Source: Alitta virens (lineage: Eukaryota > Annelida > Polychaeta > Phyllodocida > Nereididae). Taken from it: a stretch of 64,000 bases of DNA. The notes under the pieces are model-generated. The model worked only from the letters and a program-made list of their open reading frames with translations. It searched no databases and was not told where the DNA came from. A program made the translations under genes and the position numbers. The stretch is taken from contig OW028573.1 in the NCBI GenBank assembly GCA_932294295.1, positions 54,687,829 through 54,751,828 on the forward strand, in the 5' to 3' direction. The first letter of the stretch is position 1, and each line of letters opens with the position of its first letter. Of the stretch, positions 2,334 through 61,399 are shown one piece after another.

Positions 2334-5300
2334 CTGGAGGTAAGTAGATATTTAATGAATGTGTCAGTTATATATTAGTCGTTAGTAAAGCCTACACATT
2401 AAGAGTTCTTCAGCAAATTTAAAATCGACCTACTTTTTGAGTGCCAATCTGGTATTTTTGACGATTCCTCATTCTTATTTTCTCCAGATTTTCTGAAATT
2501 GGAAAAAAAAGGAGACCCTAATGAAGCGAATTTGTCAAATGTGTTGCACCAGAAGACAAAGATCATTGACTAACTTAAAGGAACTGCTTTTGGAGATTAC
2601 CCCAAAAGTTTCTGCACTATTTGATAAGCAACTGGACCAATATTTGGTCAGCCCAAAGTTTTTCGCATTTTCAATCTTTTGTAGGGCAGTCAGTATGTAC
2701 ATATTTCATATATTTTACATAGTGTAACGGAGCATCATTTGATTTGCACCACATTTGCTATATAACTTCTATTGTAAGTCACACCTGTTGTCACTGGATT
2801 CCCCAGGGTTTCATTATATATTTGCAAGAGCTATTATATCTTAGTCACGAACTTCTCAAAATAATTAGGCGGGAGGTGAATGACTGACGACCTCTGCGCC
2901 GAACGTATACTCATTTTATGCATTTTTGACACATTTCCAGACTTCAAATTAAAATATCCAGGTTGAACGGTTTGGGGTTGAGACTAGCCCCGTCATATTC
3001 ACTACAGAAAACGTACCTCCAACCTCCTCAAAAAGACGATTTTGCAAGCATTGCTCTGGAGAGACTACATTTTGCTCTGGAGAGAATCCATTATATTTTC
3101 CATCTCACCACCTCCATTTCAACACCTCTGACCGACTGTTTAAAATTACTAATATCATAGGCGTAGGGGGACCTCTTGCATTTGTTGAGGGGGGGGGGGT
3201 TGACCAATGCTGCCGAAAAATATTTGAACCAAAATTACTATCTTGGATAAACACAGGAATATTTATTACTGAATACAATTCGCTGTAATGTTTAACATTG
3301 AAGTCCTTTTCTGATGTTTTAAAGTACACTTTCACTCATTTACACAGTTAGTGTTTATCAACAGTGTCTATCAGTGCAAAGTTCCACATTTTTCCCAAAT
3401 CATAGCCTGCGGCACATGCATCTAGCATACTGTGAGTATGAGCATATTGTAAGACCTGATTATTTCAAGTAAGCTAGTTTATAGTATTATACTGATTTTC
3501 ACTTGAGCTTATACTAAAATCTAGGCATATGTTTTTGGGAAATCCAGGAGAATAATTGTTTAAGATATTCTGAGGAAATATCAATATTAGCTGGCAAAAA
3601 CGGTGGGAATATCAACTGCATGTAAAGAATTAAGAACAAGCGGCACAAGTAAAAGATAGGAAAATTCTGAAAACATCAACATATAAGATGGTGCAAATTT
3701 GGGAAAACATCGAAAAAAACATGAGATGCCTCCTACGCCTATGACTAATATGCTATATGTCACGGTCTAGGTTAAGTTATCACAATGTGCTGTCAAAATA
3801 TTAAAATGTTATCAATGGTCTACGTTATAGAAATGTCAGCCTCCACTGATTATGCTATTATGTAATAAGGTAGTGTGCTGCCAACTCGACTGCACAGTAC
3901 GTCTCTCCAAAATATAAGACCCGGATGAACAACTTGAGTATAATATATTATATACACAATGTTCAAACTGGTCTAATATATTTGTAGGATGATGGCAGTT
4001 TTACTTGCCAAGTTAATGACTGTGAGGTTTAAAAATACAGATTGCATCAAACGGTTTCATAGTGACATGGTCTTAATTTTGAAGGGTTCCCAACTGGGAC
4101 TCAGCCTTTCAAATATGGCATTATATATGGAAGTATTATGACGGTATTTTTTAATTTTTTAATTAAGCACATTTTGAGCTGAGCTGAATGTGTTGAATGT
4201 GTCATATCATCCTATATATCACATCATATTGATTGGTATAGTACTGTATTGCATCGTATCGTATCCTATTTCATATGCTCAACAACAATCTTTATAATAT
4301 ATATATATATATAATTGAAAAGTAGATGTCAGACAAAACATATATGTCATACTAAATAAGATAACACTAATAAGCCTCCAGGCACAATATTAAGGTTCAG
4401 TGACAAGATCATCCAGCAGATGACTGACAATTAATAACATAAAAAAAAACCTACTTTCTCTTTGAACGAAGAATGACCAATTGTACGTTGTCTCCAGTTT
4501 TCTCCATAATTTGACGCGTTTCTTCGAAAGTTGCATTTACCAGACTCTGGCCATTCCATTCAACAATCTGATTTCCTGAAAATGACATAACATAAATATG
4601 ATGAACAAAACAGATCACATTTATTAATCACAGTTCGCGAAATTACATTTTTGTGTAAATTTTAATCCAAAAACTTTGGTAGCAAAGGAGTTTTTTCTTA
4701 TCCGTTACCAGTTCATATTTCTTCGTAAACATTTCAAATTTCTTCGAAATTAATTGAAAAATTCCACTTACCTTCTTCAATGCCACTGGCCTCAGCAGGT
4801 CCCCCCTTAGCAACATAGGACACGAAAGCACCAAGTTTTCCATCAGGCCCCACTTTTCCTCCTACAACTCTCATTCCAAGACCGACAGCTGAAACATCGC
4901 AAATTTAGCTTCATCAATCAGCAATATGGTTGTTTTACTTTCTATCTTTACAGAGCGAATATATGGTGGGCTACACACCCATCCTGGAGGTACACCATAG
5001 TGATATCCTAAATAAATGTATCCATATTTTCAATTAAAACCTCATATCAGCTCCACACCAAGATACAGTAATTCAATTCCCAGTCATGACAAATTTAAAG
5101 TATTCACTTCGTTTACAGTGTTACTAACTGATACAATTTTTGTATTTTTTGGATTGCTCTATAATACTGTTCACATTTGTTCCAGGGACAAACGAAATTC
5201 CAGCTATGATCATCACTCAATCACTCATAATGCAAAGGGACACAATCGAGGGGTGTTACTGCACACAAGAAATGCACAATAATGCAGGTGTGTACATTCT

Positions 5301-21611: not shown

Positions 21612-23108
21612 CATCAGTCCAGCGCAACAGCCTTCCCAACTTAACACCAGAATAGAACGTTACCAAGAAACAAAGGAAGGACGTCACAGACGATTAGTCA
21701 GTGGTTGATCGTTTAAAGAACGCGAAAATAACCCCCCAATAAATGCTTGTCAGCTATATTCAGAAAACGCACAGAACCATCAGTCCAGCGCAACAGCCTT
21801 CCCAACTTAACACCAGAATAGAACGTTACCAAGAAACAAAGGAAGGACGTCACAGACGATTAGTCAGTGGTTGATCGTTTAAAGAACGCGAAAATAACCC
21901 CCCAATAAATGCTTGTCAGCTATATTCAGAAAACGCACAGAACCATCAGTCCAGCGCAACAGCCTTCCCAACTTAACACCAGAATAGAACGTTACCAAGA
22001 AACAAAGGAAGGACGTCACAGACGATTAGTCAGTGGTTGATCGTTTAAAGAACGCGAAAATAACCCCCCAATAAATGCTTGTCAGCTATATTCAGAAAAC
22101 GCACAGAACCATCAGTCCAGCGCAACAGCCTTCCCAACTTAACACCAGAATAGAACGTTACCAAGAAACAAAGGAAGGACGTCACAGACGATTAGTCAGT
22201 GGTTGATCGTTTAAAGAACGCGAAAATAACCCCCCAATAAATGCTTGTCAGCTATATTCAGAAAACGCACAGAACCATCAGTCCAGCGCAACAGCCTTCT
22301 CAACTTAACACCAGAATAGAACGTTACCAAGAAACAAAGGAAGGACGTCACAGACGATTAGTCAGTGGTTGATCGTTTAAAGAACGCGAAAATAACCCCC
22401 CAATAAATGCTTGTCAGCTATATTCAGAAAACGCACAGAACCATCAGTCCAGCGCAACAGCCTTCCCAACTTAACACCAGAATAGAACGTTACCAAGAAA
22501 CAAAGGAAGGACGTCACAGACGATTAGTCAGTGGTTGATCGTTTAAAGAACGCGAAAATAACCCCCCAATAAATGCTTGTCAGCTATATTCAGAAAACGC
22601 ACAGAACCATCAGTCCAGCGCAACAGCCTTCCCAACTTAACACCAGAATAGAACGTTACCAAGAAACAAAGGAAGGACGTCACAGACGATTAGTCAGTGG
22701 TTGATCGTTTAAAGAACGCGAAAATAACCCCCCAATAAATGCTTGTCAGCTATATTCAGAAAACGCACAGAACCATCAGTCCAGCGCAACAGCCTTCCCA
22801 ACTTAACACCAGAATAGAACGTTACCAAGAAACAAAGGAAGGACGTCACAGACGATTAGTCAGTGGTTGATCGTTTAAAGAACGCGAAAATAACCCCCCA
22901 ATAAATGCTTGTCAGCTATATTCAGAAAACGCACAGAACCATCAGTCCAGCGCAACAGCCTTCCCAACTTAACACCAGAATAGAACGTTACCAAGAAACA
23001 AAGGAAGGACGTCACAGACGATTAGTCAGTGGTTGATCGTTCGAAGAACGCGAAAATAACCCCCCAATAAATGCTTGTCAGCTATATTCAGAAAACGCAC
23101 AGAACCAG
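21612..23108. repeat. 166-bp satellite, nine near-identical copies
   Basis: Units starting CAGTCCAGCGCAACAGCC recur at 21615, 21781, 21947, 22113, 22279, 22445, 22611, 22777 and 22943, exactly 166 bp apart. Only two differences were seen by eye: CTTCTCAAC in copy 5 and CGTTCGAAGAACG in copy 9. Each unit has an AATAAA word and stops in all frames over two units, so it is noncoding. Such uniformity means recent amplification or homogenisation, or possibly an assembly effect on copy number. Confidence 0.98.
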
Positions 23109-28890: not shown

Positions 28891-29609
28891 ACCAACCTCC
28901 AGTACCCCACGAGGGTTTTTTTTGCTAACATAATATAGATAATAATATTATTATTATAAATATTGCGTAATAGTTTACCATAGCACACATCCACTGGTCA
29001 ATGTTCACGATAACCCCAGTCAACATGGACCAGCAACCCAGAAAAAGATTTATCTTTAGCTACATTTAGTGATATAATGCACTGAAAACGGTATGCGTTT
29101 ACCAACAACATAGTTTCGTCTAAAACACAATGATCTTAATGTAAATTATGTATGGGTTCGGGGATGTAGCTTAGAGCTGTATTCTGTTTGAAGTTCTAGT
29201 AACGTTGGCTTCTTTGGTATTTAAAAAAAAAAAGGTAAACTACATTTGTGCACGGAAGAACATTGCTACCAGGCTGTGAGCAATATTACTTGGTACTTCT
29301 TCCATATTTAAATGTTGCCATGGGAACAACATAAATATAGAGCGTGTAGTGCACTAGTGTCACATTGGGCAACTTCAAAGGAGTAGTTTCATTCACATAA
29401 CGTTACATAATTATATAATTATTTCAGGTTCACTTTTAGATTTTGCACTGAATGTGACAATTTGAGATGTAAACAACACTTCCAACCAAAAAAAGCATTT
29501 TGTTGTAAATATTGTCTCCATGCTACATATGTACTTGGTTTGAAGCTAATTAGTTAGCTTATTTGACCAGCTGTTAGAGGCAAACGTAATAATGAGATGA
29601 TAAGGATTT
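28891..29609. other. No gene; one isolated X-box-like palindrome
   Basis: AT-rich. GTTGCCATGGGAAC at 29314-29327 is of the type found in the arrays at 30.3 and 57 kb. Confidence 0.5.
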
Positions 29610-29760
29610 TTTTTTTACACATTTGCCCCATGTGTGGGGTATGTTACTTGCCTCAGCATAGACACCAGGTACAAGGTATCTCTGATTGACATGAAAGTGG
29701 GATGTAGCTCATTGGCCGGGATTCGAACCTGGGACCTTCATCAGAGCTGGCCAATATGGA
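29610..29760 (-). mobile_element. SINE family 2 fragment
   Basis: Minus strand: B box GGTTCGAATCC, then TATGCTGAGGCAAGTAACA and GGGGCAAATGTGTAA, the body of the 38.97-kb SINE, ending in an A run. Confidence 0.75.
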
Positions 29761-30269
29761 ATTGATGGACGACAATACATTTCAATCATTCTAGTTTTAG
29801 TATTTAAAAGCAGAATTAGAAACATCATATCCAAGTAAGATAATAAAAAGTTTACAATTATTTATTTCATGCTGCGAAACTTACGCTACTAGAACTATCT
29901 CACGACCAGTCTACCTCCTGAGCATTCTTTGTCAAATTACTCTCAAAGGCTCTTGCTATATATGTACAAAGGAAAAGAAAAGAAATAAAGAGGAAATGAA
30001 GATCGAGGAATAAAAGTGCACATGGTCTTCTGGAACTAATTAGTCTACTCTTGGTACTATCTGCATCTGCTCTACATTTTATCATATAACATATTTACAA
30101 GACATTAGACATCCTAAGCACGCAAAATTCAACCCAGTAGTAGATTAATTACTTATGAAATATCTGAGTGAGATAAAAAAGGAGTACAAAGCAACTGATT
30201 TGAAAGAGCAAAAACACTAATATAGGAGCAGCTAGGTCGGTGGTGTAATGGAATCAGTTTGAAATATTT

Positions 30270-31290
30270 TAGGGAAATTCCAGCCTGCTGGGAACCTTCA
30301 AAATCTGGGTTAAAAAGGTGCATTCTGCTTTTGTAGATACTACCAAATTCACAACCATTTCTTTAATAACTTTATTAATACAATGTGGATATCTTTCATT
30401 TTTACAGGATGAAACAATTACCATATGCCACAGGCAAGCACATTTTTTCACTTCACTGTTTTCCTTGTTGCTATGGTAACCAACATGTTGGATATTGCCA
30501 ATTTTAAGCAAATAGACTTCGAAAAGTTAATTATGCTGCAAAATCTACATAGAAAAGTTGAGCTATTTCCCTACAGGATACAATTAGAACCCATACCATT
30601 TTTAATTTTACCAATTTATGAGGTTACATGTGATTCATTGGTTGATATGGTAACAGGGTATGGTTACTGTTGAAATTTTATCAGTAACAGGAAAAAGCTG
30701 AATTTTTCCAATATTAACAAATGTCTTATGTTAATCAGCTTCAAATATCATGTACTATCTGTCACAAATAGATAATTTCTATAAATTAAGGAGATTACAA
30801 TAATCACCGTTGCCATGGAAACAGAATCAAATTGGCCTTTTTGGTTACCTGTGTATGTTGGAAGGTAATACCAATGTGCTCTATTTTAATTGCAGGAAAT
30901 AAGAGATTTTCACATATGAAAAATAACTGTAAATGTTGAAGTACACATGTACTTGAAATGGTAATCTCAAGTGGTTGTCATGGAAACAGGGTACTGATAC
31001 CTCTTATTAAACTCATGCAATGTTAATGCTATTGCTCGGCAATTATTTTCTACAGACATGCCAATGTGGATATCCTTCATTTTTACAGGATGAAACAGTC
31101 ATCCATATGCCTTCCAAAGGCAAGCCAACATTTTTTTATTTACAAATCTGCCATCCTTTGTTGATCAGTTTTAAGTATTAGATACTATCTATCACTGACA
31201 GATAATTTCTAGAAATTAACGAGATTTCAACCAATGTCTGTTGCCATGGAAACCGAATTAATTGAGACCTATTTTCATTGTTGCATTTAA
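30270..31290. repeat. Diverged repeat array with X-box-like palindromes about 170 bp apart
   Basis: Near-palindromes of the form GTTgCCATGGaAAC start at 30467, 30641, 30809, 30974 and 31240 (spacings 174, 168, 165, 266). Other words recur too: GGATATCTTTCATTTTTACA near 30388 and 31070, and ATAGATAATTTCTA/ACAGATAATTTCTA near 30768 and 31198. Motif and spacing match the 56.9-61.4 kb array. Confidence 0.8.
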
Positions 31291-32374
31291 TAGATTATTA
31301 AGTCAATATTAATGCACATTTTCATTGTTGTTGACACAAGACAAGGCACGGAGAGCGTTTTTGATGTGTTTTGTTTTTTAAATAAAAGAGTTGGCTTCGT
31401 TTCAGCCCAAAGTCAAAGAACCAGCCGACAGAAAAGATCCAAGTCTTTGTGAGAATTATATTCGTATATACCTAATGCAGTCACACACAGTGGGGGAGTA
31501 AGGAATTCAGCATCATAAATGATTTTATATTAACCACTAGAATAGATTTCGACAGGTTTCTGTGTCAAGATAAGCAGAACAACGTCAGATTCGGCGATAA
31601 TTAAAGAACTACTTTATTCGCCATTGCGTTGAAATCAATCAATGGACCTACTTTCGTCGCCTATAGAGCACCTAGTCTGTAATGCAGTAGTGGTCAAAAT
31701 TTGATGTAAAAATTCACTCTTGCATCCAGAGTTTCATATTCCTTATGACAGTCTCAAATTCAGGTCTTCGGGTAATTCTTAAAATTATGCCGATCAAGTA
31801 CACGATGATGTCAAAAATTAATACTGAATTTCATGTAATTTCCCAGCCAAATGACTTCAGATGAAATAAAAAGAAAGTAGCTCAGAACATTTCGTTAATC
31901 TTATTGTCAAACAAACTGCTGTATCATGCGAGAGGTTGTCCTAAAAAACTTAAAATTTGCAAAATGTACTCCAAATTTTGTTCCTTGAAATATAAAGCAT
32001 CTTACACTGGCACAAATATAGTTGTATAGTGTTGTTGGTTAGCTTTCACGAGTGGATGTCAAAGGCCAACCAAATAATATCTTGGCTGATTTTAAACAAA
32101 ACTTTGGATAGACACCAGCTAAACAATTATTTTTCTGAAACAGACAATCATTTCTAAGAGTGTGGGTCCATCATGAAGTTGCACAGAAATTATCTTTATA
32201 ATATCAAATACATAGGTCATGAAGTAATGGAAACATCATACTCTTCACTGAGTGAATCTGTAATGTAATTACCAATAGAAGTTACCACGGAACAGTTATG
32301 AAGCTCCCATCAGCCATTCACATTGTCATGATTGTATTTAATTGTATGTATTATTTTGACTCTGATCAAAAACG

Positions 32375-32919: not shown

Positions 32920-33430
32920 CCCATATTCCTTGTAATACCATTCAAGACCCTCCTCAGCCAATCAGAAGGCAGTATTTGCTGGTGACAATATCAGTTATCA
33001 GCTCATCCAGGCTGATGTTTTCCGCTTCAGTGATTACAAGGGAGTGATAACTATGTCAAACAAACGCTGAAGGATTTGTACCAACTAAGGCAAACAATAA
33101 ACTATCTTATTAGTAACAGTAAGGTTATTGAAAACAAAAGGCACTATTAAACAACATCACCACTATATGCAATCCTCAGCATAAGACCACCTCACAATTA
33201 AGACCACCTCACTATCTGGACCACTTCACTAGTGAGACACCTCACTATTAAGACCACTTCATTATCAATACCACATCTCTACCAGAAGAACACCTCGATT
33301 TAAGATTGCCTCACAATTTAGACCACTTCACTACTATAAAAACACCTCAATATAAGACCAACTCACAATTATGACCACTTCACTATTTAGACTACTTACT
33401 ATTATGACCACTTCATTATTAAAACCACAG
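32920..33430. repeat. Dispersed repeat with GACCACC minisatellite (copy 1)
   Basis: The unique part (32930-33150; CAGCCAATCAGAAGGCAGTA then TTTGCTGGTGACAATATCAG) and the following imperfect array of AAGACCACCTCACTATT units (about 16-18 bp) both match 55445-55990. Confidence 0.85.
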
Positions 33431-55444: not shown

Positions 55445-55990
55445 TCATAACAATAATACCATTCGAGACCCTCTTCAGCCAATCAGAAGGCAGTATTTGC
55501 TGGTGACAATATCAGTTAACTCAAGCAGGCTGATAATGTTTTCCGCTTCAGTGATCACCAGAGACTGAAGAATTTGTGACAACTAGGGCAGCCAATACAC
55601 ATTCTTAGCAACAGTAATTGAAAACAAAAGGCAACATTTAACAACATCATTACAATCAGAGCACCATCAATATAAGACCACCTCACAATTAAGACCACCT
55701 CACTATTTAGACCACTTCACTAGTGAGACCACCTCACTATTTAGACCACTCACTATTACAACCACTTCATTGTCAAGTTTACCTTAATACAAGACGACCC
55801 CACAATCAAGACCACCTCACTATATTTAAACCACTTCACTAGTGAGAAACCTCAATATAAAAACCACTTCACTCATCATTAAAACCACTTCACTCATCAT
55901 TAAAACCACTTCACTCATCATTAAGTCCACTTCATGAAGACCACCTCACTATTAAAAGCACCTCATTATTTAGCCACAAAATTTTGAAAA
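55445..55990. repeat. Dispersed repeat with GACCACC minisatellite (copy 2)
   Basis: Matches 32920-33430 in both its unique part and its array. The array includes three exact 18-bp units ACTCATCATTAAAACCAC near 55870-55925. Confidence 0.85.
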
Positions 55991-56505
55991 CTTGACCATT
56001 GTATTTAAATGACTATTAATTCCATCATTAAAACCACTTAAATTTGCATTAAATGGGCAGGTTTTACATCCTGCAGGCCAAATTTCCATAACAGCAAGAA
56101 TTAAATAATTATAGTTAGATATTTATTTCTACATACCTGGCCATTCAATAATATTGTGAAAAATAAGATCCATGTGCGTAGGAGTACTCATGCATCTGAT
56201 ACACTCATTGCAGACAATACCTATTCTGTTTCAAATCTACCACCTGATGACATACAATTAACAATGACACATGTATCAATTCCTGATATCAGGCTTGTCA
56301 ATAAAACGATATATATATATATATTAACAATCAATTCTAAGAGGGATTAAGTTTCTGTTTTAATTTGTTTTTAAGTTGTCTACTCTCGCAGTTTTAGTGA
56401 GTCATTGCCCTTGGGAGGCTGATTCTGGCTTATATATAACACTCGAGCGCTTGAGGTAAAGGACTTTTGGGATGATTAAGATTTAAGACTTTATTACCAT
56501 ATAAC

Positions 56506-56536
56506 CATGGAGACAAGAGTAGATCTTGTCTCCATG
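56506..56536. repeat. Perfect 13-bp-arm hairpin
   Basis: CATGGAGACAAGA, 5-nt loop GTAGA, then TCTTGTCTCCATG. It lies at the left margin of the X-box array. Confidence 0.95.
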
Positions 56537-56906
56537 ATATAAAAATTATACGATTTTATGTTGCCTTGACAATAAAAAAAATTACATTGCAATAATAGTT
56601 CCATGATATAGAATTTATTTTTCATAGTAGATACTGTAACTGGCTCTGTTAATCACGTATAAATTCTTTCCACGATCGTACGAGGGCCTTAGTCAGGGGG
56701 CCAAGGCCAGAAAATGTGAATAAAAAGGGCACTTTGTTTGCACCGATCCACACCTCCTCAAATTTGGTATCATCGAATTGGAAATTTTCTGTACTTTTTG
56801 TAATCTGTACTTGTTTTGTCAGTTTCTTGGACCGGAGATGTTTTTTTCTTGTATCCATGGCAACAAGTACGTTTTTGTATTGAACAAATTAACAAAAATA
56901 ATTTTG

Positions 56907-59900
56907 GTGGTATACTGTTAATTACAATGCTTGACAATTGTTGGTACCATGGCTAATCTGCATGGCTGATCTCATTAAAGTTTTGCAGTAAACACTAGTT
57001 TTTCTCCATTTCCTGTTGCTATGGTAGCAGTTTTACAAATATTTTCATAAATTTTATTAATTTGCTTTGATATCTTTGACTGTCAAGCTTTTATAACACA
57101 GTAAAATAATATACATTTGGTATCTCAAGACACCTTAGGAGAAACTATCTCAGAAAGAAAAGCATCACTGAAAGTTCCTTCATTTTTGTGTGTTGCTATG
57201 GAAACTCTTTTTAAAATTGTCACATTTTCAGAGAAAGTCTCAGTAATATGGGAATATACATTTTATAAGATATATTGAACATAGGAAGGTGATATTTAAT
57301 AATTTACATGTAAAAACCTCACTGATTAAAGAAATATACTTTTTGCAGTCTCTGGTTGCCATGAAAATGTGTATCTGACCCCGGTTTCTTTATATGGGTA
57401 AATTTGCAATTAGATTGATATAAGCAGTCTGTAAAAGAGAGAAAATCAGCAAATTGCTAGTTAATAAGACTTTTGTGAAGGCTGACACCCATTTTACCTT
57501 GCACGGATATCTGAAAGGTGGAAATGTTACATTATTCATATCTCTGGACCTATGACAGGTACAACCATAAATTTCTTATTGAACACCATGTTTTCAGGGT
57601 CAATGAGTTCATTTCTGATAATTTAAAATGGCTAATTTGCATATATTTCATTGTATTGTAAATCTAGATAGGTCAATTTGCATAATATTTCCTTATATGG
57701 CTACTGCAATGGGCAGTCAAGGTGCCGAAGCATTTATATTTTTCTTTTTATTCTCAACAATGTTTCAAACTGTTTCCAACAAATTACTGAACTTGAATAA
57801 TAAGTAAATAAAATTAACTTGCATGGACTGGTTACCATGGTAACAAAACCACCAATAGTCCTGATATAGATTTATGCCAGCATATATGATTCATAAAGCC
57901 TCATTATATAGGTGCCTTGATTCTATTCATATGGCATGATTGTTTCCCCAAACATATATTGATATGGATGTATGCTCCTATGATAAGTTGATTTGAAACC
58001 TGGTATCCATGGCAACCAAATTGAAAACAAATATGGACAAGATATTCACAGTTCTGTCCCTTTTTTGTCTGCAGATAACCACTTAAAGCAATTACTGGGC
58101 TTGTAACATAGGCAATATTTAGCAATATTTGAAAACTTGGCAGTGGTTCTCTGAATTATACACAGGGTTGGCATAGTTGCCTAGGTAACACATATTTCAG
58201 TCTATTTATAGTAACCATTGTGAATTCGAACACAAGTCCAGCAAGGGCAATATTCTAGAAGTTAGTACATCAGCAAGTTGCACATATCAGTATATTTGCA
58301 AGAAAGCAAACTTTCTAGAACCGGCCATGAAAACTGTCATTTACTGGGATATTACCAATGACAACTGTTTCCATGGCAACCAATTAATGAAATTATGAGT
58401 AAATTATATGTCCATTTATATTGATATTGTGTCTCTCTGAATGCCAGCAAGTACCAACGAGGCATCAAATTTTGAAGTTCCAAAGATTACTGTACTTGTT
58501 GTTAATCAATATTGACTGGTTATTGCACTGGGTTGCCATGAAAACATTAAATTATAACAAAATTGGATGCATTTTTGAAATAGTTTCACCTTTATTTTGT
58601 TAATACGTAAAAAGTTGAGACAATCTCAAAATTTATTGTGATGGTTCAGGAAGCCAACTTTATGATCTTTCCAATGACACCTTATATGTTGACTTTTGCA
58701 GTATATCTATATATGAAAAATGATCTCCAAGGTAACCCATCCTCTCATAATTTCCCAGCAAAATGCCATGTTTTAAAGATTCTTGTGTGATATTGTTAAC
58801 CATAAAATGTAATAGATTGATTTCAGGAACCAAAATGGCTATAGGGTGGGGTAAAAATCCCTGTAGTTGCCACTTTTGCATTTGCAAATAGGCAGGTTTC
58901 CATAGAAACAGCCAGTTTAAAAATATCTTTAAAAATCATGTTTTTTTGGAAAGGTGCTTTTATTGATTCAAAAAAATATCAAGGCATGTTGCTGTTATAT
59001 GGAGCCTTATCGAAGCATTGTACAACAGTTTCCAGCAGCTCTGAGACTACGTACATAACTGCTTGAATCTGATTGCCAAGGCTACAGTTTTGCTTACATA
59101 CATAACAACAGGTTTTACTCAATGTTGCCAAATAAAGTAATATTTGTTTTATCAGTACAGTAAACTGTACTATAATAACCAACTCAGGTATTTCTATGGA
59201 ATTAATTGCTTGAAAGAAACAATGACTTTTACACCTCTGCATCACACTTTTCAAATGCTCATTACTAGAAAATGCTACATTGTTCATTTCTCTGCACCTA
59301 CGACAGGTACATACATAATTTGCTTATTAACCATCATGTTTTCTGCGTTAATGAGTTCATTTCTGATATTTTAAGAAGCATACACTGTGTTACATTGTAT
59401 GGCAAATCTAAATAGGCTAATTTGCTTATAATTTATAAATACTTTCAAAAATGGCTGTCTTCATGAAAACTTGCTTATCTGTGAATGTAAAAGTGGCAAT
59501 TACTGGGAGTTTCACCCCATCCTTGCCAATTATGTTTCTTAAATTAATATTTTATTACCCGATACGGTTAACAATATCACACAATAATCTTCTTTAAAAA
59601 AATGGCATTTTGCTGGGAAATGTTGGAGGCTGGGTTTACCTTGGAGTCCATTTTTCAAATATAAATATACTGCAAAAGTAAATAAAATATGGTGTCATTT
59701 GAAAGATCATAAAGTTGGCTTCCTGAACCATCACAGTAAATTTTGAGATTTTCTCAAATTTTCTGCATTGACAAAAGAAAAGAAAACTTTTTAAAATAAT
59801 GCATCCAATTTTGTTATGATTTTATGTTATAAATGGACAGATAACATAATTTCATTAATTGGTTGCCTCGGAAATGGTTGTCATTGGTAACATCTCAGTA

Positions 59901-61387
59901 AATGACAATTTTCATGGTTAGTTCCAGAAAGTTTATATTCATGCAAATATACTGATATGTGCAACTTGCTGATGTGGTAACTTCTTCAATAACACCCTTC
60001 GTGGCATTCTGAGGCTCCACTTGTTACAGATCCACGAGGGTTACTATAAATAGACTGAAATAATGTGTTACCTAGGCAACTATGCCAACCTTGTGTATAA
60101 TTCCATTGTCATGTATTCAAATATTACCAAATATTACTAAATACTTTCTATGTTACAAGCCCCAGTAACTGTTTTAAGATGATAGCTGTAGACAAAAATA
60201 GTGACAGAACTGAATATCCTGTCCATATTTGTTTTCAATTTGGTTACCATGGATACAAGTTTTCAAATTAACTTATCACAGGAGCAAACATCCTCATATC
60301 AATATATGTTTGGGGTAAGAATCAAGGCACCTATATAATGAGGCTTTATGATGAAATCGTACATGCTGGCATGGATCTATATCAGGACTATGATGGTTTT
60401 GTTACCATGGTAACCAGTCCATGCAAGTTTATTTTATTTACTTATTATTCAAGTTCAGTAATTTGTTGGAAACAGTTTGAAACATTGTTGAGAATAAAAA
60501 GAAAAATATAAATGCTTTGGCACCTTGACTGCCCATTGCAGTAGCCATATAAGGAAATATTATGCAAATTGACCTATCTAGATTTGCAATACAATGAAAT
60601 GTATGCAAATTAGCCATTTTAAATGATCAGAAATGAACTTCTTGACCCTGAAAACATGGTGTTCAATAAGCAATTTATGGTTGTACCTGTCATAGGTCCA
60701 GAGATATGAATAATGTAACATTTCTACCTTTCAGGGTCTCTTACTGTTATTTTAGGTTGCTAGAGTAACACAGTCAAAATAAAAAGATATCCGTGCAAGG
60801 TAAAATGGGTGTCAGCCTTCACAAAATACTGTATAACTAGCAATTTGCTGTTGTTCCCTCTTTTACAGACTGCTTATATCAATCTAATTGCAAATTTACC
60901 CATATAAGGAAACCGGGGTCAGATAAACATTTCCATGGCAACCAGAGACTGCAAAAAGTATATTTCTTTAATCAGCGAGGTTTTTACATGCAAATTGTTA
61001 AATATCACCTTCCTATGTTCAATATATATTATAAAATGTTTATTCCCATATTACTGAGACTTTCTCTGAAAATGTGACAATTTTAAAGAGTTTCCATAGC
61101 AACACAAAAAAGTGAAGGAACTTTCAGTGATGCTTCTTTTCTGAGAGAGTTTCTCCTAAGGTGTCTTGAAATACCAAATGTATATTATTTTACTGTGTTA
61201 TAAAAGCTTGACAGTCAAAGATATCAAAGCAAATTAATAAAATTTATGAAAATATTTGTAAAACTGCTACCATAGCAACAGGAAATGGAGAAAAACTAGT
61301 TTTAACTGCAAAACTTTAATGAGGTCAGCCATGCAGATTAACCATGGTACCAACAATTGTCAAGCATTGTAATTAACAGCATACCAC
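56907..61387. repeat. 4.5-kb inverted repeat made of about 170-bp X-box-palindrome units
   Basis: The left arm (56907 to about 58935) is the inverse of the right arm (about 59437-61387), visible along the full length, with scattered substitutions and small gaps and a spacer of about 500 bp. Left-arm palindromes of the type GTTnCCATGGnAAC start at 57015, 57192, 57355, 57831, 58003, 58176, 58367, 58532 and 58896; right-arm ones at 60067, 60243, 60401, 60929, 61090 and 61266. Neighbouring spacings are 158-192 bp or about three times that. GTTACCATGGTAAC at 57831 and 60401 is a perfect palindrome. The unit continues left to 56851. No coding frame. Confidence 0.92.
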
Positions 61388-61399
61388 TTTCAAGCAATG

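Follow-up and report, generated by a model that had tools for sequence, protein, structure and literature searches.

A truncated foldback DNA transposon in Alitta virens bearing a 14-bp palindrome at intervals of about 170 bp

The element, its arms and its dispersed copies

The window, that is, the whole 64,000-nucleotide stretch of Alitta virens DNA analyzed here, contains at 56690–61387 a dispersed DNA transposon copy of the foldback type: truncated, with very long inverted-repeat arms, and with no transposase of its own found (Table 1). The element has 14-bp ends, TAGTCAGGGGGCCA, and its copies lie between target duplications of 3 bp (sometimes 4 bp); we hold this assignment with great confidence. 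It is apparently non-autonomous. The inverted repeat described in the first-pass annotation is real, and comprises an outer and an inner pair of matching segments; its left boundary, however, had been placed wrongly at 56480. Arm-to-arm identity per 100 columns is 89–100% across the outer 1.1 kb, 77–92% further in, and near chance at the center. The 50-bp segment present only in the right arm was most likely lost from the left, since L016 and L042 both have a palindrome at that step.

Table 1. Coordinates of the transposon copy, its palindromes and a second ladder in the window
Feature	Position	Strand	Basis or remark
Truncated foldback (long-TIR) DNA transposon copy, ~207 bp of right end absent	56690–61387		Matches full copy L016 save L016 positions 4884–5090; other copies show the ends and target duplications
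A-type terminus TAGTCAGGGGGCCAAGGCC..., true left end	56690–56735	+	9/22 listed arm ends of this type; 19-mer has 68 exact genome copies
Left arm, outer part	56907–58420	+	Inverted match to 59828–61387, 86% over 1599 columns
Left arm, inner part	58543–58933	+	Inverted match to 59432–59828, 81%
Center (loop), unrepeated between arms	58934–59431		Inverted-match and identity profile
Right arm, inner part	59432–59828	-	Inverted match to 58543–58933, 81%
Right arm, outer part	59828–61387	-	Inverted match to 56907–58420; identity profile
50 bp with palindrome 60756, absent from left arm at 57511/57512	60735–60784		L016 and L042 keep palindrome there
169-bp unit-length segment, sole unit duplicate found	57522–57690	+	78% direct copy at 59270–59434
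Copy of 57522–57690	59270–59434	+	
Palindrome GTATCCATGGCAAC	56851–56864		GTTNCCATGGNAAC match
Palindrome GTTGCTATGGTAGC	57015–57028		GTTNCCATGGNAAC match
Palindrome GTTGCTATGGAAAC	57192–57205		GTTNCCATGGNAAC match
Palindrome GTTGCCATGAAAAT	57355–57368		GTTNCCATGGNAAC match
Palindrome GTTACCATGGTAAC, perfect, strict X-box	57831–57844		GTTNCCATGGNAAC match
Palindrome GTATCCATGGCAAC	58003–58016		GTTNCCATGGNAAC match
Palindrome GTTGCCTAGGTAAC, strict X-box	58176–58189		GTTNCCATGGNAAC match
Palindrome GTTTCCATGGCAAC	58367–58380		GTTNCCATGGNAAC match
Palindrome GTTGCCATGAAAAC	58532–58545		GTTNCCATGGNAAC match
Degenerate palindrome ATCTCCAAGGTAAC	58723–58736		
Palindrome GTTTCCATAGAAAC	58896–58909		GTTNCCATGGNAAC match
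Degenerate palindrome ATTGCCAAGGCTAC	59072–59085		
Degenerate palindrome GTCTTCATGAAAAC	59457–59470		
Degenerate palindrome GTTGCCTCGGAAAT	59862–59875		
Palindrome GTTACCTAGGCAAC, strict X-box	60067–60080		GTTNCCATGGNAAC match
Palindrome GTTACCATGGATAC	60243–60256		GTTNCCATGGNAAC match
Palindrome GTTACCATGGTAAC, perfect, strict X-box	60401–60414		GTTNCCATGGNAAC match
Degenerate palindrome GTTGCTAGAGTAAC	60756–60769		
Palindrome ATTTCCATGGCAAC	60929–60942		GTTNCCATGGNAAC match
Palindrome GTTTCCATAGCAAC	61090–61103		GTTNCCATGGNAAC match
Palindrome GCTACCATAGCAAC	61266–61279		GTTNCCATGGNAAC match
Second ladder (array B), palindromes at 30467, 30641, 30809, 30974, 31240	30360–31330		Different, older dispersed family; homology to first not detected

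As in other foldback (long-TIR) elements the arms make up most of the entity (~2.2 kb each in full copies of ~5.1 kb), and copies are dispersed with precise ends and target duplications. The arms are not built of sequence-alike tandem repeats, the flanks of the units being without homology; we know of no requirement that every foldback element have such repeats. The end 14-mer has 187 exact matches in the genome, against none for the reversed pattern. Among 19 copies having both ends (the B/B-ended copies L019 and L039 are left out of the count) 14 carry exact 3-bp target duplications, two carry 4-bp duplications and three carry none; with the flanks re-dealt, 1.2 duplications of 3 bp are expected, and the maximum in 10,000 deals was eight. 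A search with one arm segment yielded 40 scored matches of 176 candidates: two are the window's own arms and the rest are 94–98% identical. Besides the window's own pair, these 40 include eight inverted pairs, seven of them spaced 1.9–3.2 kb. Of 21 A-ended copies, 17 have their first palindrome 159–163 bp from that end. L043 is a 325-bp derivative with a single palindrome and a flanking 3-bp duplication: the ladder of palindromes is thus not needed for transposition itself.

No autonomous partner was recognized among the fetched loci, and the long copies examined contain nested elements. Nor was a mobilizing transposase recognized in the inserts of L021, L038 or L041; the first of these (3.9 kb) has two ORFs, neither of which reaches the Pfam cut-off. 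By eye, the L038 insert has long, recombinase-like ORFs and the L041 insert an RT-like ORF; all three inserts appear nested or foreign. Rfam gave no match at gathering score in the window.

Spacing, conservation and form of the palindrome

A 14-bp word, GTTnCCATGGnAAC, recurs along the arms ~170 bp apart or double that, with about ten copies per arm in a full copy. The pattern GTTNCCATGGNAAC, with up to two mismatches, matches the window 24 times against 3.0 expected from shuffles (0 of 100 shuffles reach 24): 16 matches fall in 56851–61279, six in 29314–31253 and two elsewhere. Twelve left-arm sites, chosen with a tolerance of three mismatches, give a peak coherence of 0.875 at 168 bp, a value reached by one of 20,000 random placements (these being scanned on a coarser period grid). 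Over six sets of palindromes 39 of 48 gaps are within 150–205 bp, with a median of 170 for those gaps. Genome-wide, exact palindrome pairs number 257 at 160–190 bp, compared with 52 at 110–140 bp and 17 at 210–240 bp (bins of equal width). The near-nucleosomal spacing proposed in the first-pass annotation holds. TTTGCA-like words occur 17–37 bp ahead of some palindromes, too few to rely on.

The same annotation had called the units satellite-like. This is not supported: the sequence is a single dispersed transposon with 3-bp target duplications, and, the 169-bp duplicate aside, no homology was detected between unit flanks (flank information 0.138 bits vs 0.135 shuffled). Units alike in sequence and arranged head to tail, as in satellite DNA, were not found. 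Tandem Repeats Finder returned no array of ~170-bp period in the stretch, and on these two grounds, flanks and finder, a satellite array was rejected.

Conservation was assessed by comparing palindrome identity with that of equally spaced neighboring (shifted) 14-mers in aligned copies. Between L016 and L042 the palindromes score 0.900, 0.900 and 0.940 and the shifted 14-mers 0.778, 0.702 and 0.760, with none of 134 shifts as high in each case. All 11 aligned sites (of 12) are identical between L058 and L054, against 0.923 for shifts (0/124 as high); L054 and L064 give 0.982 against 0.843 (0/91). In a second family, array B compared with L059 gives 0.946 against 0.819, with 0/104 shifts as high, and 1/124 in the other direction. 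In the L016–L054 comparisons 8/124 and 2/124 shifts were as high as the palindromes. There was no palindrome contrast in the cluster II pair L057/L062 (42/124 and 14/124 shifts as high) or between the two inner parts of L042 (0.971 vs 0.972), no clear contrast between the outer part of L042 and its inner part 1 (p 0.26), and in a short L054–L058 comparison 48/124 shifts were as high. The window copy's two arms, taken alone, show no notable contrast (5/98 palindrome columns differ vs 111/1391 others), so copies from elsewhere are needed to see the constraint. Across 33 arm segments, palindrome blocks diverge at 0.71, 0.53, 0.97, 0.61 and 0.46 times the flank rate in five divergence bins, where pairs are non-independent and blocks were chosen by the number of copies showing the word, which favors slow palindromes. 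Together these results leave us confident that the word is better conserved than its surroundings whenever diverged copies are compared, save in a minority of cases. The suggestion that the palindrome is kept while the unit diverges is mostly upheld by the refuting condition set in the first-pass annotation: between subfamilies the palindromes exceed flanking 14-mers, with exceptions in L057/L062 and some close comparisons.

X-boxes occur as elements of promoters and are not known to form ladders at nucleosome spacing in transposons. The ladder word shares with the RFX X-box, for which an excerpt of PMC5752003 gives the consensus GTNRCC(N0-3)RGYAAC, palindromic half-sites (GTTnCC/GGnAAC) and an AT spacer, but only 18 of 54 sites match this strict form and two thirds do not. 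A looser pattern, GTHNYYATRRNAAC, which appears in none of the papers listed for it, fits 38/54. The variable half-site base is C in 0/54 left halves and G in 1/54 right halves. Of the earlier description the X-box-like palindrome stands, with strict agreement with the RFX consensus in a third of the sites.

A ~10-bp A/T-dinucleotide signal is at its strongest, within the window, in the two mirror-image arms. It is equaled in 0/60 shuffles of the window arm, 1/60 of L016 and 19/60 of array B; half of L042 gives 0/60, its two similar parts alone 16/60 and 12/60. The signal keeps no fixed phase with the palindromes and is absent from array B, and the L016 peak is at 8.7 bp. As a nucleosome code in the arms it is a hint only.

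Other repeat families carrying the word

The genome search for further arrays, suggested in the earlier reading, found other loci and clusters with the same word and pitch, as well as array B in the window. About 16 unit types can be told by eye among 50 exact palindrome pairs listed, and sampled pair loci fall into several sequence clusters, mostly without mutual homology, one of which includes array B. At E 1e-6 no between-cluster homology was found except one 74-bp match, palindrome included, between L062 (cluster II) and L064 (cluster I). At L056, L042-like sequence, its end included, directly abuts L055-like sequence. This match and this junction cast some doubt on the independence of the clusters. 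L016, L042, L054 and L064, all of cluster I, are homologous at 67–78%; homology of L055, L060 and array B to cluster I was not detected. The 10-base end core occurs in one of the 13 loci L054–L066 (the L042-like L056), where ends may fall outside the fetched stretches. L054, L058 and array B have the ladder without inverted arms >150 bp. Taken together, the comparisons make it probable that repeat clusters of this genome whose sequences are at most slightly related, as far as can be detected, share both word and spacing. In viral contigs, seven stretches match two half-palindromes at ~170-bp pitch, by estimate about the chance number.

Interpretation and comparison with known elements

The explanation we favor joins the foldback transposon, the conserved word, the several families and linker sites for a dimeric factor; as a whole we give it not quite an even chance. 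The word is predicted to bind a dimeric sequence-specific protein, most likely, we infer, a host winged-helix factor of the RFX type. Sites one nucleosome repeat apart would place one site in each linker, and a bound element would form a regular nucleosome array. Such an array would keep the element open to transcription, replication or the transposase, or else label it within germ-line chromatin, and linker sites of this kind may be exploited by several repeat families. Judged from sequence, that the word is a binding site of a host factor is a reasonable possibility, somewhat below even, and that this factor is RFX in particular is rather unlikely. We also think it unlikely that several families without common sequence converged on encoding phased nucleosomes, each linker bearing an RFX-type palindrome, so as to hold their own chromatin in a given state, with selection acting on word and spacing and not on the intervening sequence.

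The palindromes could instead be bound by the transposase of the element itself, or by a helper that an autonomous partner supplies; all ladder families would then belong to one superfamily, their flanks having diverged too far to be recognized. The 14-bp constraint between source lineages, the position of the first palindrome in A-ended copies and the homology within cluster I agree with this, as do the 74-bp link between clusters I and II and the union of two sequence types at L056. However, the single-palindrome derivative still moved, no autonomous copy was found among the fetched loci, L055, L060 and array B are without detected homology to cluster I, and the end core is scarce in L054–L066, even if some ends there may have escaped the fetched stretches; we regard a transposase site as possible, yet doubtful.

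It is improbable that the ladder descends from an ancient satellite or higher-order repeat with decayed units, in which the palindrome persists by promoting its own duplication or repair: unit flanks are without homology, clusters without detected homology share the word, and a duplication mechanism leaves the fewer palindrome substitutions between aligned copies unexplained, even though one unit duplicate exists in the element and array B has an internal duplication at 430 bp and, by eye, another at ~685 bp. That the palindromes matter solely as DNA or RNA structure (as cruciform nuclei, or as the hairpin or dsRNA origin of the long arms) and not as protein sites might be argued from arm stretches up to 97–100% complementary, but a specific word is conserved, its variable base is often not its partner's mirror (by eye), and ladders occur without long inverted arms at L054, L058 and array B; this we consider very improbable.

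Transposons carry scattered transcription-factor sites. A ladder of a single palindrome at nucleosome pitch, conserved amid DNA turnover and common to dissimilar families, would if true amount to a chromatin-level code in selfish DNA, and on the linker-site reading makes a testable claim: that one protein binds every linker of such elements. It also urges caution, for nucleosome-length periodicity in 'satellite-like' DNA can reflect the spacing of protein sites and not unit duplication. Judged by titles and abstracts, the open-access literature searched gave no description of a nucleosome-pitch palindrome ladder in repeats. Of six exact palindrome variants one was found there, in two papers on ciliary genes; among the matches listed for a shorter half-palindrome text, none is about repeats by title.

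Helentron and pearl elements are not known to make target duplications and have similar central tandem repeats, whereas 3-bp duplications and unlike units were found here. The comparisons that follow draw on excerpts of the papers named. Oyster Helentrons (PMC7492417) also bear ~170-bp satellite-like repeats on dispersed elements, but their monomers are alike in sequence and accompanied by microsatellite and 3′ palindrome modules, in contrast to the unlike units, inverted ends and target duplications of the present element. The AcademX lineage of Academ (PMC10045372) has 3- or 4-bp target duplications, as do 16/19 copies here; its transposase carries a nuclease, whereas no transposase was found in our element, and the likeness, which rests on duplication length, is a lead only. 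Galileo, of the P superfamily (PMC4168063), resembles the present element in having long terminal inverted repeats that differ among copies in length and structure, but has mostly 7-bp target duplications and a known transposase, and the excerpts describe no one-palindrome ladder. Tetris of Drosophila virilis (PMC4079207) likewise has long inverted arms, is non-coding, carries a regular repeat in its arms, and has rearranged copies and a shorter derivative with common ends; its arms, however, hold true tandem repeats of ~220 bp and its target duplications are 8–10 bp, where here the sole repeated unit is a 14-bp word spaced at ~170 bp and the duplications measure 3 bp.

Arms, ends and dispersed copies of the element

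By its ends and target duplications the element under study is a foldback transposon. Its inverted repeat, reported by the first-pass annotation as the frame of a satellite-like array of ~170-bp units, is real, and beyond the pairing listed in the table continues inward at 81% identity. Per 100 columns, identity is 89–100% in the outer and 77–92% in the inner arms; the centre of the window copy is unpaired. A 344-bp left-arm query against 671 Mb of genome in 23 contigs (the window is on contig 1) gave 40 scored matches of 176 candidates, including the window's own two arms; the others were 94–98% identical. Besides the window's there were eight inverted pairs, seven of them spaced 1.9–3.2 kb, and 20 regions taken from these matches served for comparison of copies.

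The limit of homology with other copies sets the true left end of the window copy at 56690; by the same comparison it stops on the right at 61387, ~207 bp short of the full end. Full copies measure ~5.0–5.3 kb. Relative to the ends, the bodies of L016 and L017 lie opposite to those of the window copy, L018, L020 and L033, which suggests recombination between the arms; such recombination would also maintain the similarity of the outer arms. Other repeats adjoin the truncated end, and the loci sharing them (L021, L032, L039) hold copies of the transposon too.

The two end types, A and B, share the 14-mer TAGTCAGGGGGCCA and then differ over 20–30 bases. This 14-mer occurs 187 times in the genome (reversed control, 0) and the A-type 19-mer 68 times. 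Nineteen copies bear one A and one B end; exact 3-bp target duplications flank 14 of them, 4-bp duplications flank two, and three have none. The 19 include L052, which a one-letter rule classed as B/B although its left end aligns as A, and exclude the B/B copies L019 and L039 (both without duplication) and loci missing an end. When flanks were re-dealt 10,000 times, 3-bp duplications averaged 1.2 and never exceeded 8, against the 14 observed. Derivatives of 325–2004 bp kept both ends in 9 of 11 regions. Locus L053 carries three B-type ends spaced 545 bp apart, which may be the beginnings of a tandem array built from the end of the transposon.

The element works like a foldback transposon, and is neither a satellite nor a Helentron. 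Nearest in plan is Tetris, which, unlike the Alitta virens element, has true tandem repeats and 8–10-bp duplications (PMC4079207). The 3-or-4-bp duplication of AcademX (PMC10045372) fits, a likeness by duplication length alone. No description of a comparable palindrome ladder was found in the literature searched.

Coordinates of transposon copies and other features (window positions unless a locus is named)
Feature	Position	Remarks
Paired arms	56907-58420 / 61387-59828	86% identity
Full copy	L016, 821-5910	
Full copy	L017, 772-6027	
Full copy	L018, 689-5645	
Full copy	L020, 752-5864	
Full copy	L033, 762-5952	
Dispersed repeat	61391-62067	matches in L021, L032
Repeat sequence	62071-62255	matches in L021, L032, L039
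Triple B-type end	L053, C1:33566900-33568600	
Self-inverted stretch	L065, 1854-2178	87%, imperfect
Array B (second ladder)	30360-31330	
Minisatellite, 17 bp	33182-33428; 55673-55950	TAAGACCACCTCACTAT
Repeat, ~500 bp	32933-33415 / 55454-55913	74%
Tandem repeat, 166 bp	21612-23107	nine copies, 99% identity
Open frame, 683 codons	5854-7905, minus strand	rich in RS/RD/RE repeats

The palindrome ladder and its conservation

Along one arm of L016 the palindromes step by 164, 177, 163, 173, 357, 178, 176, 204 and 158 bp. L042, from a related subfamily (~73–79% identical in longer matches), has 22 sites, with steps of 164, 176, 162, 177, 329, 200, 163, 179, 162, 169 bp and so on. Spacing is less regular in rearranged copies (150–592 bp in L040; some steps of 46–794 bp in L033). 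In 17 of the 21 copies that have an A end, the first palindrome is 159–163 bp away from it. No homology was detected between unit flanks, save one 169-bp duplicate; it is therefore the word and its pitch that recur, not the unit.

Constraint was measured at sites defined in one sequence only, with 14-mers shifted by 14–80 bp as control. Three comparisons of L016 with L042, which share sequences and are not independent, gave palindrome identities of 0.900, 0.900 and 0.940 against 0.778, 0.702 and 0.760 for shifted 14-mers; 0/134 shifts reached the palindrome value in each, and identity returned near flank level ~10 bp from the palindrome centre. Fisher tests on the same pairs gave p of 0.042, 0.001 and 0.0002, and a fourth arm 0.00004. 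Between the L016 arms the values were 0.979 and 0.914 (Fisher p 0.004), or 0.955 by the other arm's sites (p 0.095).

Against the more distant L054 (65%), L016 gave 0.905 versus 0.617 (8/124 shifts as high) and 0.893 versus 0.654 (2/124), and against L058 0.905 versus 0.607 (1/124). Two parts of L054 gave 0.786 versus 0.571 (0/124), L054 and L064 0.982 versus 0.843 (0/91), and array B and L059 0.946 versus 0.819 (0/104; reverse direction 1/124). Eleven of 12 sites aligned between L058 and L054, all 11 identical (shifts 0.923, 0/124 as high); a shorter stretch of this pair gave 0.946 versus 0.910 (48/124). There was no contrast between the L042 inner arms (0.971; flank 0.972) or between L057 and L062 (0.940 versus 0.917, 42/124; reverse direction 14/124), and L042 outer versus inner arm gave 0.871 against 0.814 in the flank (Fisher p 0.26).

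One word in several repeat clusters

Exact pairs CCATGGNAAC...GTTNCCATGG, every family copy counted separately, number 257 at centre distances of 160–190 bp, 52 at 110–140 bp and 17 at 210–240 bp; reversed-pattern controls gave 0. Among the 50 pairs listed out of the 257, ~16 unit types were told apart by eye, several being parts of one family; 15 pairs were L055-like and 8 belonged to the foldback family. Clustering at E 1e-6 of 14 loci or arrays, some from the comparisons above and others selected for 160–190-bp palindrome pairs, grouped L016, L042, L054 and L064, with L058 joining L054 (cluster I), L057 with L062 (II), and L059 with array B (III); L055 (IV) and L060 (V) stood apart, and L061, L063, L065 and L066 (2–4 sites each) were unclustered. 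The sole between-cluster match at this threshold, 74 bp between L062 and L064, has a palindrome inside. At L056, L042-like sequence with its end passes directly into L055-like sequence; the two may form a single element, or one may be nested in the other.

In six sets (three from cluster I; L054, L055 and L057 chosen for a pair at ~170-bp pitch) 39/48 gaps fall in 150–205 bp, with a median of 170 among these; five are near double and none is under 120. In the eight loci added later, each selected for a pair at that pitch, some gaps are shorter (down to 28 bp) and some longer. The self-inverted stretch of L065 arranges the word differently: its four X-box-like words form pairs with a spacing of 28 bp.

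With its two-base spacer, the palindrome is the kind of site that dimeric DNA-binding proteins require. The same word recurs in clusters that share little or no sequence, which makes a host factor somewhat likelier than a transposase as the presumed binding protein, but the clusters may instead owe the word to old common descent. In its sequence the word resembles the RFX X-box: 18/54 sites fit the strict consensus GTNRCC(N0-3)RGYAAC (PMC5752003), and 15 of the 17 window sites of a looser X-box form fall in the two arrays. One palindrome is enough for movement, as the 325-bp derivative L043 shows, so the ladder should have some role besides transposition. With sites one nucleosome repeat apart, each would fall in a linker, and the bound factor would phase nucleosomes across the element, conceivably for expression, access or marking.

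Array B and other features of the window

No homology between array B and the first ladder was detected. Array B is part of an older dispersed family (52 genome matches including itself, the others 70–88%), and has internal duplications at 430 bp and, by eye, ~685 bp. The 17-bp minisatellite sits inside the ~500-bp repeat found near both ladders. The 166-bp tandem repeat is a true young satellite-like array. By its reverse-transcriptase fragments and its style the DNA looks to be animal. The first 330 residues of the open frame gave one protein-search match, at 33% identity.
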